From Anaerorhabdus furcosa (GTDB lineage Bacteria > Bacillota_I > Bacilli_A > Erysipelotrichales > Erysipelotrichaceae): 32,342 nucleotides of DNA. The stretch covers positions 1 through 32,342 of the forward strand of contig NZ_FUWY01000010.1 in assembly GCF_900167375.1 (NCBI RefSeq). The letters are read 5' to 3'. The notes under the pieces are model-generated. The model did not search any database and was not told the DNA's origin. It was given only the letters and a program-made list of their open reading frames with translations. Made by a program: the position numbers and the translations under genes. Shown one piece after another: positions 5,453-32,342 of the stretch; within the stretch, counting starts at the first letter, position 1; every line of letters starts with the position of its first letter.

Positions 5453-6811
5453 TTAATTCTTTAAACTTTGAAGTGGTGCTGGTATTCTTCCACCACGATG
5501 AATCATAACAGCTGGTGATATTTTGCTTATCTTCATAATAGGTCCACTACCAAGTAACCCACCAAATTCTAACTCATCACAATCTTCACAACCTACTGCA
5601 GGTATAATACGAACTGCTGTAGTTTTACTGTTTACCATTCCTATAGCTGCCTCATCTGCAATGATACCCGAAATAACTTCTGCAGTTGTATCGCCTGGTA
5701 CAACAATCATATCCAAACCAACTGAACAAACTGCGGTCATTGCTTCTAACTTTTCTAATGTTAACGCGCCAGATCTTGCTGCTTCAATCATACCTGCATC
5801 TTCTGATACCGGAATGAAAGCTCCACTCAATCCACCAACATTTCCACTAGCCATGACACCACCTTTTTTAACTGCATCATTTAACATCGCAAGACATGCC
5901 GTTGTTCCAGGACCACCACATTGTTCTAAACCCATTTCTTCTAATATATATGCAACTGAATCACCTACAGCTGGTGTTGGGGCTAAAGATAGATCAACGA
6001 TACCAAAAGGAATCCCTAATCTCTCACTCGCAACTGTTCCAACTAACTGTCCCATACGTGTAATTTTAAAAGCTGTTTTCTTAATAATTTCAGCAATCTC
6101 ATCCATTGTGCAATCTTTGCCTGCTTTAGCAACTGCACTACGTACAACCCCAGGTCCAGAAACACCTACATTCAGTACAACTTCAGCTTCAGAAATTCCA
6201 TGAAACGCACCTGCCATAAATGGGTTATCCTCTACTGCGTTGCAAAATACAACAAGCTTTGCAGCACCTAAACATTGATTATCTTTAGTCATTTCTGCAC
6301 ACTTAACAACCACTTGCCCCATAATCCTAACTGCATCCATGTTAATCCCTGCACGAGTTGAGCCAATATTGACACTACTACAAACTTTGTTTGTAACCGC
6401 CAACGCCTCTGGAATTGATTCAATTAATTTAATTTCTCCTGGTGTCATTCCTTTTTGAACAAGCGCTGAATAACCACCGATAAAATTTACACCAACTGCT
6501 TCCGCAGCTTTATCCAATGTTTTAGCATATTCAACCGGATCTCCACCACTTACATCAACAAGTAAACTAATTGGTGTTACTGAGACTCTTTTATTAATAA
6601 TAGGGATTCCATATTCTTTTGAAATTTCTTCACCTACTTTAACTAAATCTTTCGCCTTTGATACTATTTTATTAAACACTTTCTCACATGATTTCTTAAT
6701 ATCTGTATCTGCACAATCAAGTAAAGAGATACCCATCGTAATAGTACGTATATCTAAATCTTCCTCTTGAATCATTTTGATTGTTTCTTGAATTTTATTT
6801 GTATTCAACAT
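5453..6811 (-). CDS. UPF0210 / DUF711 (PFL-like) family protein
   Basis: This 452-residue cytoplasmic protein has the sequence features of the UPF0210 (DUF711) family, which is named PFL-like for structural resemblance to pyruvate formate-lyase. Its biochemical role is not established. The glycine-rich and family-conserved stretches are intact, including [31 protein letters not shown], a [12 protein letters not shown] segment and [13 protein letters not shown], and the length is normal. It is the last gene of a four-gene unit, starting 9 nt after the ACT-domain gene; AGGTG at that gene's stop serves as SD. The UPF0237 (ACT)-UPF0210 pair is a known conserved neighbourhood in Gram-positives, so the ACT protein may sense a ligand for this protein, but that is inference. 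Confidence 0.92.
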
Positions 6812-6820
6812 AATTTACAC

Positions 6821-7090
6821 CTATATCGTATGCATTGCATTGAAAATATCTTCATGCATTACATGGATTACTAGATTATTTTCTTTGCCCGTTTTTTCAA
6901 TATGATTTACAAATTTCAAGAATTCTTCTGTTCCTGAATTAATATCCACAATCATAAACATATTGAAAACATCTTGCATAACCGTTTGAGAAACATCTTC
7001 AATGTTTGCACCAAACTTTAAACACTCATTACTAACTAATGCTAAAATACCTGTTCTATCTTTTCCTACTACTGAAATTACTGCTCTCAT
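6821..7090 (-). CDS. ACT domain protein, UPF0237 family
   Basis: This 89-residue protein is a single ACT domain. Its first strand and loop, VVGKDRTGILALVS, have the typical ACT pattern of a strand followed by D-x-x-G before the ligand site, and the rest fits the alternating strand/helix layout. ACT domains usually bind amino acids or other small ligands and act as dimers. The gene begins after a strong purine-rich SD (AAAGGGGG), 15 nt past the upstream lipoprotein gene, and is followed after 9 nt by the UPF0210 gene. Co-occurrence with UPF0210 is well known; the ligand is not. Confidence 0.93.
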   Translation of the reverse strand: MRAVISVVGKDRTGILALVSNECLKFGANIEDVSQTVMQDVFNMFMIVDINSGTEEFLKFVNHIEKTGKENNLVIHVMHEDIFNAMHTI

Positions 7091-7105: not shown

Positions 7106-8188
7106 TTAGTTTAATGAACTTGGCGTTACACCTATAAACTGACATTCTTGAATAAATAATTCCTTAGCTAGCTGAATATTGGCCACTTGTTCCTCCGTAC
7201 ATCCATAATTTTTACTTTCTGTAAAATTATAAGTACAAACACCACCTAAATTTCCAGTATCATCACTCCAATTGTAAGTGTAAGTTCCACTATCTGTAAT
7301 TAGGTTAAATTCCATCTTATTAAAATCGAATTGATAGACTTCTGTTCCCCAATCATATTCAATGATACCAGAGTTTGTTTCTGTATAGTCTGCTTTCGAT
7401 ACTAATAATTTCATTAACTCATTTTGATTTGTTTCATTTGTAACTTCTTTATTTGAAAAATCTTCTAAATCACTTGGAAACTCAACAACAGTACTATTTA
7501 TATCACTGATCACCGAACTTAGTGTTACCTCAGTTGTCATCGTTGTTTCATCTTCGATAATATCCAGTAATAACTCCAAATTAATCTCAACAAGATACTT
7601 GTCTTGGTTTAAAACAAATTCAACATAGTTTTTACTTACTTTGTATTCAGTTTCATTTACCAATTGTCCTTGTGCCTCTAAGATTTGAATAATTTGCTTA
7701 TCATTGAGTTGAAACCTTAATACTGTGTTAGTACCCGATTCCTTAACTACTCCATTTTTATAGTCTAATTTTTCGATAATTGCGGAAAAATCACTTTCTC
7801 CCAATTGCTTCTCATATTCTTCAAAAGATCCCTCTTGAATTGTTCTAGCTCCATCACTTTGAATATAGAATTTTCCATCCTTTGTCCAAACTTCAACACC
7901 ACTTTCACCTACAGCATCAACAGCTACCGTCATCTTTGTGTATCCTTCACCAAGACTATTGGTATTGTTGATACTCGTTTCAATTGTTGAAAACGTATCC
8001 AAGATAACTTGTTCATTTGTAGCAATATTCACTTTAGCTACTTCGTGCTTGGAATAGTTTTGCAGCGTGTGTGTTAATTCAATGGATTCATTCAAAAGTT
8101 TTATCGTTTCATCTGTTGCACTTTTTTGATTTTGACTACACCCAGCAACTAAAAGCAACATCAAACAACATATTAATAATTTCTTCAT
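7106..8188 (-). CDS. Lipoprotein of unknown function
   Basis: The 360-residue product has a lipoprotein signal peptide: MKK, a hydrophobic core and the lipobox LVAGC with Cys17 as the likely lipidated residue. It should sit on the outer face of the membrane. The mature part is hydrophilic and rich in beta-prone, Asn/Thr/Glu-rich stretches. It resembles the loose group of Firmicutes lipoproteins with DUF6612-type folds, but I do not assign it firmly. Three cysteines (318, 330, 349) near the C-terminus could form a disulfide. The ATG overlaps the stop of the GH43-like gene (ATGA), so the two are translationally coupled and may act together. Confidence 0.85.
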   Translation of the reverse strand: MKKLLICCLMLLLVAGCSQNQKSATDETIKLLNESIELTHTLQNYSKHEVAKVNIATNEQVILDTFSTIETSINNTNSLGEGYTKMTVAVDAVGESGVEVWTKDGKFYIQSDGARTIQEGSFEEYEKQLGESDFSAIIEKLDYKNGVVKESGTNTVLRFQLNDKQIIQILEAQGQLVNETEYKVSKNYVEFVLNQDKYLVEINLELLLDIIEDETTMTTEVTLSSVISDINSTVVEFPSDLEDFSNKEVTNETNQNELMKLLVSKADYTETNSGIIEYDWGTEVYQFDFNKMEFNLITDSGTYTYNWSDDTGNLGGVCTYNFTESKNYGCTEEQVANIQLAKELFIQECQFIGVTPSSLN

Positions 8189-9399
8189 TTATCTTCCTCC
8201 ATCACAAATCCCTGTGTTACTCTTTCCCATTCTTTCCAAGTGATTGGGATAACACTTGCATGTCGCGGGCTCTCCATCGGTGCGATAACTTCTTTAATCA
8301 CGACAACATCTTCAAATATTTCGCTTCTTAATTCGTAGGTTGTCATCGCTTGGAATTGTTTTCTCGTGTAATCATCATAATACAAAATATAATCATAATC
8401 ACGCTTTAAATAAAATGGTCCTTCACTTTGATGTCCTGTAATTCTTTTTGATGAAAAAGTATCAAATCCCAAATAGTCAGTTGAGGATGTCCCCAAGAAT
8501 AATTGTGAGTATTCTTCCATTGGTTCCCTTTCATCTTTTAAGACAATTGTGTAATCATATCCTTCTTTGATAATTGTTCCATCAATGACTACAAAACCAG
8601 TGTCTAACAATTTCTTTGGATAACTAACATCATTGAAGTCTGTTGTGTAATTGTAATACATACCCCCATCTTTTGGGCTTGACCATGTAATAACATATTG
8701 ATCAATTCGTCGGTCATAAAATCCTTCTGGTGCCCACGCTTGTTTCTCACTCATTTGTAAATCATCACTCGATTTGTTGACTTGCAACAATCGTTCATTC
8801 TCATAATGAACTAAATCATTTGTATCCCATATGTAGATGGAAGGATTATCCCATCCTTGTGTTGCAATCATAGCGAAGGATCCATCTTTCTTTCGAACAA
8901 GTGAAGGATCTCTTACTTTTTTAGAACCTGTTGTCGCTTTAAATATCGGTTTATCATCATTAATCAAGTACCACAACATTCCATCAAATGTATAAGCTAA
9001 CTTAGGATTTTCATAGTTCTTGTCATTACCACCAAAATAAGTCATTAAATAACCTATTTGTTCATCCAACAATAATAATTGTTCAAATAAATAAGTTTCA
9101 CCATTAACCTTGCCTTGAAGAACTATATTTTCATATTCACTTGCATTTTTCTTTTTTACTAGTCGATTCTCACTAATTTCAGCTTCTCCTTGAATTACTT
9201 CCCATTCTACAGGTTCCCCTTTATAGGTTGGTAATTGACTTCCGGAGAAGATAAAACTATCTAAACTTTGATTCAAGTAATTGTATATTTCGCTTTGACT
9301 CGTATCTAGTTTTGCCTCATTATCAAAAGAAGGTTGTATCGATTTTGTTGAACAACCTACAAGGATTAAACTAAAGAATAAAATTAATATTTTTTTCAT
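8185..9399 (-). CDS. GH43-like beta-propeller lipoprotein
   Basis: The 404-residue lipoprotein has lipobox LVGC with Cys16. From about residue 115 it looks like a five-bladed glycoside hydrolase family 43 propeller: RDPSL with Asp164, AWAPEG at 221-226, IDG with Asp273 and SEGPF with Glu326, in the order expected for the base, pKa-tuning and acid residues. These families cleave arabinose- or xylose-containing glycans; the substrate here is unknown. Residues 20-110 form an extra N-terminal region. It is first in a four-gene operon. The ATG is supported by the signal peptide, yet there is no SD, and an extended -10 lies only 6 nt upstream, implying a leaderless message. Confidence 0.82.
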   Translation of the reverse strand: MKKILILFFSLILVGCSTKSIQPSFDNEAKLDTSQSEIYNYLNQSLDSFIFSGSQLPTYKGEPVEWEVIQGEAEISENRLVKKKNASEYENIVLQGKVNGETYLFEQLLLLDEQIGYLMTYFGGNDKNYENPKLAYTFDGMLWYLINDDKPIFKATTGSKKVRDPSLVRKKDGSFAMIATQGWDNPSIYIWDTNDLVHYENERLLQVNKSSDDLQMSEKQAWAPEGFYDRRIDQYVITWSSPKDGGMYYNYTTDFNDVSYPKKLLDTGFVVIDGTIIKEGYDYTIVLKDEREPMEEYSQLFLGTSSTDYLGFDTFSSKRITGHQSEGPFYLKRDYDYILYYDDYTRKQFQAMTTYELRSEIFEDVVVIKEVIAPMESPRHASVIPITWKEWERVTQGFVMEEDK

Positions 9400-9405
9400 G
9401 TTCTC

Positions 9406-9436
9406 ATTATACCAAATATCAATGAGTCAATCACAA
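9406..9436 (-). promoter_or_regulatory. Extended -10 promoter directly at the GH43-like start codon
   Basis: The minus strand shows TGGTATAAT (extended -10, TATAAT at 9406-9411), then six bases, then the ATG at 9399. A weak -35-like TTGTGA lies 19 nt upstream. Normal start-site spacing puts +1 at or within a base or two of the ATG. An intrinsic terminator just upstream limits read-through from the previous gene. Confidence 0.7.
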
Positions 9437-9461
9437 TAAAAAATCAGGTTTCCCTGATTTT
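9434..9461 (-). terminator. Terminator after the small membrane protein
   Basis: On the minus strand AAAATCAGG / CCTGATTTT forms a 9-bp stem with a GAAA-like tetraloop, followed by a T-rich tail (TTTTTTATTG). It overlaps the stop codon of the small membrane protein gene. Confidence 0.85.
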
Positions 9462-9660
9462 ATTCATCATGCGTTGATATTTCTTCTTTGATACGTGTCC
9501 ATTTCACTTCTTTTTTCTTTCGAAATGGATTTAGTTTTTTAATAAACCCAATAAGAATATCCCAAAACCCTACCCATACTCGAATTGCAATAAAAGATAT
9601 AAATGAAAGAAAGAGTATGGTTCCTAGTAAAACAAGAATTTGATTAACGTCTAAATTCAT
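9460..9660 (-). CDS. Small single-helix membrane protein
   Basis: I do not recognise this family. The preferred start, ATG at 9660 (MNLDVNQILVLL), gives 66 residues with a GAGG-type SD about 10 nt upstream. One long hydrophobic segment (about residues 8-40) is followed by a strongly basic stretch (KKLNPFRKKKEVKW) and an acidic tail, so the C-terminus is probably cytoplasmic. The longer frame starting at 9732 lies fully inside the preceding damaged gene and is less likely. It overlaps the 3' end of that gene by 17 nt, so the two were probably expressed together. Confidence 0.6.
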   Translation of the reverse strand: MNLDVNQILVLLGTILFLSFISFIAIRVWVGFWDILIGFIKKLNPFRKKKEVKWTRIKEEISTHDE

Positions 9661-10107
9661 TCCGGAAATCCTCGAAATCCATAATTGTTCCTGGTTGATA
9701 AATATACGCAAAATAATCATCATCAAATTCATCCATCAAATAAAACTGAGTATACCCAGCCATCATTCCACCTGCATGATAGATGCAATAAGAACCTTGA
9801 ACATTTTTTGCTTTTTTAATTTCACCTTTTTTAAAAATTACTGGTTCACCACAACCATCAAGATCAGGTGATGTTTGTATAAGAACGATGCTCATGTCAC
9901 TTTGACGATAACCTAAAATGTAACTTCCATACAATTATGTTGTTTTTCGTGCTAGGACATAGTTTGTTGTCTTGACTTCAGATGTGTATGCATAAACAAC
10001 TTTATATCCTTCACTATCTTCTACGACTTGTTTGAACAACGTTACAAGTTTGTCTTTGTTCGCACTACTTTTTTCTCATCCCAAACTTTCTTTTTTCCAA
10101 GTCCAAA
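9644..10107 (-). pseudogene. Decayed gene of unknown function (frameshift and in-frame stop)
   Basis: Joined in frame, the pieces give a protein of about 150 residues: GLGKKKVWDEKK, then ANKDKLVTLFKQVVEDSEG and YKVVYAYTSEVKTTNYVLARKTT, a TAA at 9935-9937, then YGSYILGYRQSD through to FRNEFRR at 9644. The reading frame changes at a run of six A's (minus strand, 10069-10074); seven would restore it. The only intact piece is the 96-codon C-terminal part, starting with TTG right after the TAA. No clear original start codon remains, though an AAGGAG SD (10112-10117) and a good promoter survive. No family is recognised; the C-terminal part is acidic and aromatic, ending near the small membrane gene. 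Confidence 0.65.
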
Positions 10108-30782: not shown

Positions 30783-32342
30783 TTAAACTTGTGGTTTTAC
30801 TTCTTCATCCATTTCAACTTCATGCCATTTTCTTCCAAGGAAGAATACAACAATAGTAACTAAAGTTAAAATCAACATGATAATTGTATACTTATCTACA
30901 AGAACCATTGGTAATGTCATATTTTCAGTAAGAATAAATATAATAACTGATATAACCGCAACGATTGCTCCAATTACTTTATAAATTCGTTTACGCTCAT
31001 ATAACTCAGTTTCTTCTTGATTTGGATTGATTTCATCACTATCATCTTCTTCATCACTTTCGTGTTTAGAAACAATTAAAATAATTGTTAATAATAAACC
31101 AATAATAACCGCAATCAGATTAATTAAAGCCCAACTAGATTTACCAACTATTTCTGGTGTTGCATCATCTTCAACTTCAGTAATATCTGGTGTTGTTGAT
31201 GGTGTAGGTGTTGGTTTTACTAACGGAGTTTCTTCTTGATCAATTGTTGCATTACCACCATTAGTTGGTGGATTTGGATTAACTGGCGGAACGATTGGAT
31301 TCACAATAACTGGAGGTTCTTCACATAATTGTGTTCCTTCATTCCAAGTAGTTCCAACTGGACAACCTGGATCAACAGGTTCTTCTGGATCTACAGTTGG
31401 AGGTATTTTATTAAATACAACTGTAAACACCATTGTTGCTGCATACTCTGAGTTTCTAATCTCATCTATAGAATTAAATAATTTATTTTCACTATCGTGC
31501 CAATTATTAAATCTATAGTTACTTGCTGCATTGTTTACTACATCTTTAGCAAGCGGAGATACTTTAATATTTAATATCTCTGGATCATATTTTTCATTTC
31601 GATCATAATCTTTAGTTACATATTCATAAGTTTCAGATTTATTGTCAGACGTAACGTAACCAGTTCCATTTGTTTCAACTTTATAAATAAATTTAACTTG
31701 GTAAACATCTGGGATTTCATCACCAATGTCATTACCATCTTGATCTCTATCACCAACAACATCTTGGTAATAGAATAAATTCAATACATTATTTGAAATT
31801 TGCATTGTAATTTCATCTTGTTCTGCATACCAATATTTATAGTCAATAATATTAACTTTATGATCAGTTGCTTTAACTTTTGAATTGAATGATGCAATAT
31901 GTGTCTCGTGGTCATCGCTACCTACAAATTCAACAATACTACCATCTGCATTTATCATATGATGTTTAACTACATATTCATAATCAATTGGTAAATAAGT
32001 TACTTCAATCTTTGTTTTATTCGCAACGATGTCTCCTGCAACTACAGTTTCTCCACCAGTTGTTTGGATTGTATTAATCTTATATCCTTCTGGTGCTTTT
32101 GTTGCGATTGACTCTGCAGTTACTTTTAGTTCATCTGCATCATTAATCCATACTGTTTCTTTTACTGTTACTACTTCACTATCTCCATTTGGTAACTTGT
32201 GTGTTACTTCATAGCTTACTTCTTTTGTTTGTGTTTCATCTTTTACATAGTTGATTGTGATAACTTCACCCTCTGCAACTGTAGTTGGTGCATTATCAAT
32301 ATCAGATTGTACTACTTTATATCCTATTATTGTTTTTGCAGT
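30783..32342 (-). CDS. Surface repeat protein, C-terminal part (cut by window edge)
   Basis: The frame is open from the window edge (32342) to the stop at 30783, giving 520 codons; the ATG at 31958 is internal, so the start lies outside. At least two related units of about 85 residues are seen, one ending AEGEVITINYVKDETQT and the next with APEGYKINTIQTTGGETVVA, with MucBP-like flavour. A third part ends NNVLNLFYYQD. Then come a Pro-rich stalk with CPVGTTWNEGTQLC (31323-31364) and three membrane helices: the first after GKSSWALI, then an acidic loop, then two close to the C-terminus. No LPXTG motif is present. Adhesion or glycan binding is plausible but not shown. Confidence 0.85.
   Translation of the reverse strand, partial: TAKTIIGYKVVQSDIDNAPTTVAEGEVITINYVKDETQTKEVSYEVTHKLPNGDSEVVTVKETVWINDADELKVTAESIATKAPEGYKINTIQTTGGETVVAGDIVANKTKIEVTYLPIDYEYVVKHHMINADGSIVEFVGSDDHETHIASFNSKVKATDHKVNIIDYKYWYAEQDEITMQISNNVLNLFYYQDVVGDRDQDGNDIGDEIPDVYQVKFIYKVETNGTGYVTSDNKSETYEYVTKDYDRNEKYDPEILNIKVSPLAKDVVNNAASNYRFNNWHDSENKLFNSIDEIRNSEYAATMVFTVVFNKIPPTVDPEEPVDPGCPVGTTWNEGTQLCEEPPVIVNPIVPPVNPNPPTNGGNATIDQEETPLVKPTPTPSTTPDITEVEDDATPEIVGKSSWALINLIAVIIGLLLTIILIVSKHESDEEDDSDEINPNQEETELYERKRIYKVIGAIVAVISVIIFILTENMTLPMVLVDKYTIIMLILTLVTIVVFFLGRKWHEVEMDEEVKPQV

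Follow-up and report, generated by a model that had tools for sequence, protein, structure and literature searches.

A predicted leaderless start for a lipoprotein gene of Anaerorhabdus furcosa

We have studied the start of a lipoprotein gene encoded on the minus strand of a 32,342-nucleotide stretch of the Anaerorhabdus furcosa genome (contig NZ_FUWY01000010.1), referred to below as the window. The sequence makes it highly likely that this gene has its own sigma-A promoter, consisting mainly of an extended −10 element, and that its mRNA is leaderless or begins at most one or two bases away from the start codon. Most relatives of the gene share the leaderless layout seen at 9399, which is therefore very probably real. 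It adds a new case to a type of gene start already known and is no new mechanism.

The start region and the putative transcription unit

The initial annotation of this region described an extended −10 ending six bases before the ATG, no Shine-Dalgarno (SD) sequence, no other usable start and a terminator just upstream. All of these were confirmed, and the leaderless start that was proposed from them is supported by the promoter geometry, the absence of an SD and the spacing found in orthologues. The minus strand at the start reads ...AAAATCAGGGAAACCTGATTTTTTATTGTGATTGACTCATTGATATTTGGTATAATGAGAACATGAAAAAA, and the features of the region are collected in Table 1. The usual distance from the −10 to the transcription start is 5–9 nt. 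We infer that transcription starts on the A of the ATG, because this is where standard sigma-A geometry places it relative to the −10. No well-spaced −35 element is present upstream of the TATAAT, TTGACT lying at only 13 nt and TTGTGA at 19 nt.

Table 1. Features of the lipoprotein gene start and the genes downstream
Feature	Position in window	Strand	Basis and remarks
Intrinsic-terminator-like hairpin, AAAATCAGG-GAAA-CCTGATTTT, then TTATTGT	9440..9461	-	Terminator scan and sequence
Extended −10, TGG-TATAAT	9406..9414	-	Last T is 9406, 6 nt before the ATG; sequence, and spacing class in 16/21 orthologues
ATG start codon	9397..9399	-	Predicted transcription start is its A (9399), with C (9400) as pyrimidine at −1; −10-to-start geometry
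GH43/GH32-like lipoprotein, 404 aa, first gene of unit	8185..9399	-	ORF, Pfam and NCBIfam
Second lipoprotein gene, 360 aa	7106..8188	-	ORF; ATGA overlap with first gene; SD −9.8 kcal/mol
ACT-domain protein, probably in the lipoprotein unit	6821..7090	-	Pfam; SD −10.9
DUF711 protein, probably in the lipoprotein unit	5453..6811	-	Pfam PF05167; SD −6.3 (moderate)

SD pairing at 9399 amounts to −2.9 kcal/mol, weaker than at any other window gene with a start that can be judged (range −5.9 to −16). No ATG, GTG or TTG occurs in frame between the start codon and the TGA stop upstream of it. The lipobox MKKILILFFSLILVGC and the signal peptide require the ATG at 9399, which is the sole in-frame start before the lipobox. 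The Pribnow box would put the transcription start at the start codon or beside it, and the gene has neither an SD nor an alternative start codon that would provide a leader; by sequence it has the layout of a TA-led gene. A second window ATG that appeared to lack an SD, at 31958 (−1.2), was rejected as a gene start since a longer open frame encloses it. A structured 5′ end of the lipoprotein mRNA was also rejected, the 5′ structure being weak (z 0.63).

The terminator-like hairpin overlaps the stop of the preceding ORF and ends 40 bases upstream of the ATG, the interval between hairpin and gene reading TTATTGTGATTGACTCATTGATATTTGGTATAATGAGAAC, then ATGAAAAAAATATTA. The scan that detected it returned five terminator-like sites in a 4 kb region, where 1.2 were expected. 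This putative terminator limits read-through from the preceding genes into the lipoprotein unit. Two small upstream ORFs (9460–9934) overlap in different frames; their listed starts at 9732 (ATG) and 9934 (TTG) are probably too early, the real starts lying further in.

The protein carries a signal peptide with the lipobox cysteine of bacterial lipoproteins, and this cysteine is nearly invariant in the alignment. Its score of 28.1 bits against PF04616 does not reach the curated cut-off of 32.2, while PF00251 (GH32 N) gives 25.0 bits against a cut-off of 22.1; no relative in the PDB was matched by sequence at 1e-3. We therefore call it GH43/GH32-like and do not file it as a member of glycoside hydrolase family 43. 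An NCBIfam arabinofuranosidase model scored 79.5 bits against a cut-off of 500. A second lipoprotein-like ORF also lies downstream in four of the orthologue loci (L003, L037, L039 and L054).

Comparison of orthologues

The set comprised 21 genes, namely the window gene and 20 others that are 41–56% identical to it, taken from Erysipelotrichaceae and Solobacterium assemblies and two related genomes. A further locus (L042) was left out because it is cut off before its start. Starts were set at the signal peptide, and the −10 box was allowed at most one mismatch. The distance from the end of the −10 to the ATG is 6 nt in 7/21 genes (the window gene included), 7 nt in 8/21 and 8 nt in 1/21. When the 60 bases upstream of each gene were shuffled 5000 times, the 6–7 nt class averaged 0.4 and never exceeded 4, compared with the 15/21 observed, although the rows are related and their counts therefore lack independence. 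This comparison led us to reject chance as a full explanation of the layout at 9399. A pyrimidine occupies position −1 in 13 of the 16 orthologues with a spacing of 6–8 nt, as a transcription start on the A of the ATG would predict.

The genes upstream vary among these 16, with rplQ in front at one locus (L004), a divergent murG at six, and others. The neighborhoods differ, and the block of promoter and start therefore travels with the gene. At the six loci (L047, L048, L049, L051, L052 and L053) murG also looks leaderless, with C at −1 and an extended −10 (TGn TAAAAT/TAGAAT/TACACT) that lies exactly 6 nt upstream of its ATG, so that murG and the lipoprotein gene would form a back-to-back leaderless pair.

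The initial annotation had suggested the −10-to-ATG distance in orthologues as a check. The 16 genes above agree with the leaderless layout, but five do not, so that the outcome it had named as a refutation, orthologues with an SD and a longer leader, is realized in part. The −10 lies at 16 nt in L037 and at 18 nt in L039 and L054, the latter two having a clear SD (GGTGAT, −9.0 kcal/mol), and L038 and L040 lie directly behind another gene. These leadered or gene-adjacent orthologues count against the leaderless reading, as do the relatedness of the rows and the lack of a general peak in the A. furcosa genome described below. However, the five make up one clade (support 97/93), and one change on the tree suffices for the label. 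We therefore read them as a probable single change, and not as a refutation of the leaderless start. By path, the rows closest to the window gene are among these five; the position of the window gene itself in the tree is poorly supported.

Leaderless starts in A. furcosa and its relatives

The A. furcosa genome has a G+C content of 32.5% (400 kb sample), and there are 356 occurrences of TATAAT followed after four to eight bases by ATG, compared with 342 of the reversed pattern. Such pairs are common in this A/T-rich genome, and a lone TATAAT-ATG site does not therefore prove itself. The reversed-pattern control is too weak because reversal also destroys the promoter motif, and a spacing control (N3 versus N6) was added. 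The extended −10 motif occurs 48 times at 6–7 nt and 42 times at 2–3 nt. Motif counts in this genome were rejected as proof of leaderless starts, since most matches open no reading frame. Several matches to TGnTAnAAT-N6/7-ATG (e.g., L116, L119, L137 and L142) read ATGGAGG or ATGAGGTG, in which the ATG belongs to an SD close to a predicted transcription start rather than serving as a start codon; counting motifs alone thus overstates the number of leaderless genes.

The distances of −10 boxes from candidate ATGs show no peak in the 400 kb sample (1 at 6 nt and 3 at 7 nt), and the window gene is therefore one of a few isolated cases in its genome. Besides the window gene, good extended −10 cases that open a real frame are found at C3:104948 (345 aa) and C4:5064 (193 aa). 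Both (C3:104948–104965, minus strand, L129; C4:5064–5081, plus strand, L134) are apparent leaderless genes with the extended −10 at 6 nt, the first encoding a membrane protein and the second a product that looks like a methyltransferase. A lipoprotein gene on contig C2 (start ~281856, plus strand; 431 aa, phosphoesterase-like by eye) has the layout of the window gene, with a hairpin, then TATAAT, 6 nt and ATG, without an SD.

Could the TATAAT at 9406 be an inactive A/T-rich match, the gene being expressed instead from a more distant upstream promoter, or by transcription passing the terminator, on a leadered mRNA whose SD (GAG) is very weak? The frequency of TATAAT near ATG in this genome, the lack of a leaderless peak and the poor −35 would all fit. 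We nevertheless regard this as improbable, given that the terminator lies between, the −10 is an extended consensus, and the spacing recurs in 16/21 orthologues, beyond chance.

The distances between TAnAAT and candidate ATGs were taken in 300–400 kb samples from five genomes (A. furcosa, G002, G031, G036 and G061). The boxes at 6 and 7 nt number 12 and 12 in G031, 8 and 8 in G061 and 19 and 4 in G002, with 0–4 at each shorter distance; G036 has 4 and 5, hardly a peak. All 39 of the 6 nt cases in G031, G061 and G002 have a pyrimidine at −1. This pyrimidine, together with the 6 nt peak, indicates that the lineage uses such starts. The 6–7 nt class corresponds to 23/350 genes in G031, 16/322 in G061 and 23/261 in G002, or ~5–9% with chance matches included. 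A leaderless class is thus clearly detectable in these three relatives, and none is visible in the A. furcosa sample. Across 36 genomes of the family the extended motif gives 768 matches with N6 against 324 with N3, N6 being the more frequent in 32 genomes and the less frequent in two. A pyrimidine is at −1 in 60/64 N6 matches from four Solobacterium-type genomes, against 14/26 among the N3 matches listed from another genome.

Leaderless genes of the relatives are mixed in function. In pairwise comparisons of the sampled parts of the genomes, paralogues included, most of them match an SD-led gene in another genome, and by this comparison the arrangement at the lipoprotein gene looks unusually persistent. 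Tentatively, leaderless starts may be a regular minor class in the lineage (~5–9% of genes in the three sampled genomes) that A. furcosa has largely lost, the lipoprotein start having been retained not as a neutral relic but because leaderless initiation is important for expression of the gene; as a whole we consider this account possible but doubtful. A leaderless start conserved across deep divergence and in different neighborhoods offers a natural test of selection on the absence of a leader, for which the leadered sister clade of the lipoprotein gene is a matched control.

Proposed initiation and comparison with known systems

In the mechanism that we propose, the sigma-A promoter, driven mainly by its extended −10, would start transcription on the A of the ATG at 9399, while the upstream terminator would curb read-through from the preceding genes. 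The mRNA would begin with a 5′-terminal AUG in an A/U-rich, weakly structured stretch. This AUG would be recognized directly by ribosomes already carrying initiator tRNA (a 70S or IF2-dependent route), as described elsewhere for leaderless mRNA (PMC6431027, PMC10783764). The downstream genes, if cotranscribed, would be translated from their ordinary SDs. Promoter and start codon would form a compact block kept with the gene across neighborhoods.

The leaderless gene might in addition be translated preferentially under special conditions, such as an altered IF2/IF3 ratio, cold or stress. This is compatible with the mechanism above and is judged apart from it. Such effects are described in E. 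coli and have been proposed for streptococci (PMC6431027), and here the arrangement has lasted, while most other sampled leaderless starts match SD-led genes in other genera. The mixed functions of the leaderless genes in relatives speak against it, and we give it little chance. Weaker still is the proposal that the transcript begins a few bases away from the A, with a leader of 1–3 nt or a partial AUG, the promoter being merely compact and without a role in leaderless translation: bacterial transcription start points do vary by 1–2 bases and the orthologue spacing by 6, 7 and 8 nt, but the peak in relatives at exactly 6–7 nt with its invariable pyrimidine at −1 argues for a start on the A of the ATG, making this very improbable.

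The predicted leaderless start has counterparts in the TA-led class (Zheng et al., 2011; PMC3160421), found in Firmicutes mainly in Lactobacillales and Mycoplasma. The class shares with 9399 a TAtAAT-type −10 ~12 bp upstream of the start codon and the lack of an SD, and in some low-G+C genomes a TG precedes the −10, as it does here. It differs in that the class is minor in the present lineage, where one gene keeps the layout across deep divergence. Leaderless starts in Firmicutes are described mainly from streptococci, lactococci and Mycoplasma. Streptococcus pyogenes and S. agalactiae are low-G+C Gram-positive organisms like A. furcosa, and 81% of the leaderless mRNAs of S. pyogenes are common to S. 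agalactiae; their 5′ ends were measured, whereas that at 9399 is predicted (PMC6431027). In Deinococcus-Thermus (PMC12340547), an ORF-adjacent −10 motif gives leaderless expression, the layout shared with 9399, and −10-adjacent ORFs are an important general mode there, in contrast to the minor class of the present lineage. The term Erysipelotrich- does not occur in PMC3160421, and the sole mention of Erysipelotrichia in PMC10783764 is in its table of anti-SD types; the literature searched, partly judged by title and abstract, held no report of leaderless starts for the present lineage. Annotation that relies on SDs to predict starts will place some of them wrongly in this lineage. The view in the initial annotation that leaderless mRNAs are uncommon in low-G+C Gram-positive bacteria agrees with the A. 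furcosa genome, with Enterococcus (<1%) and with Clostridioides difficile (15 genes), but not with the three relatives, nor with the streptococci, in which 8.6–9% are leaderless (PMC6431027).
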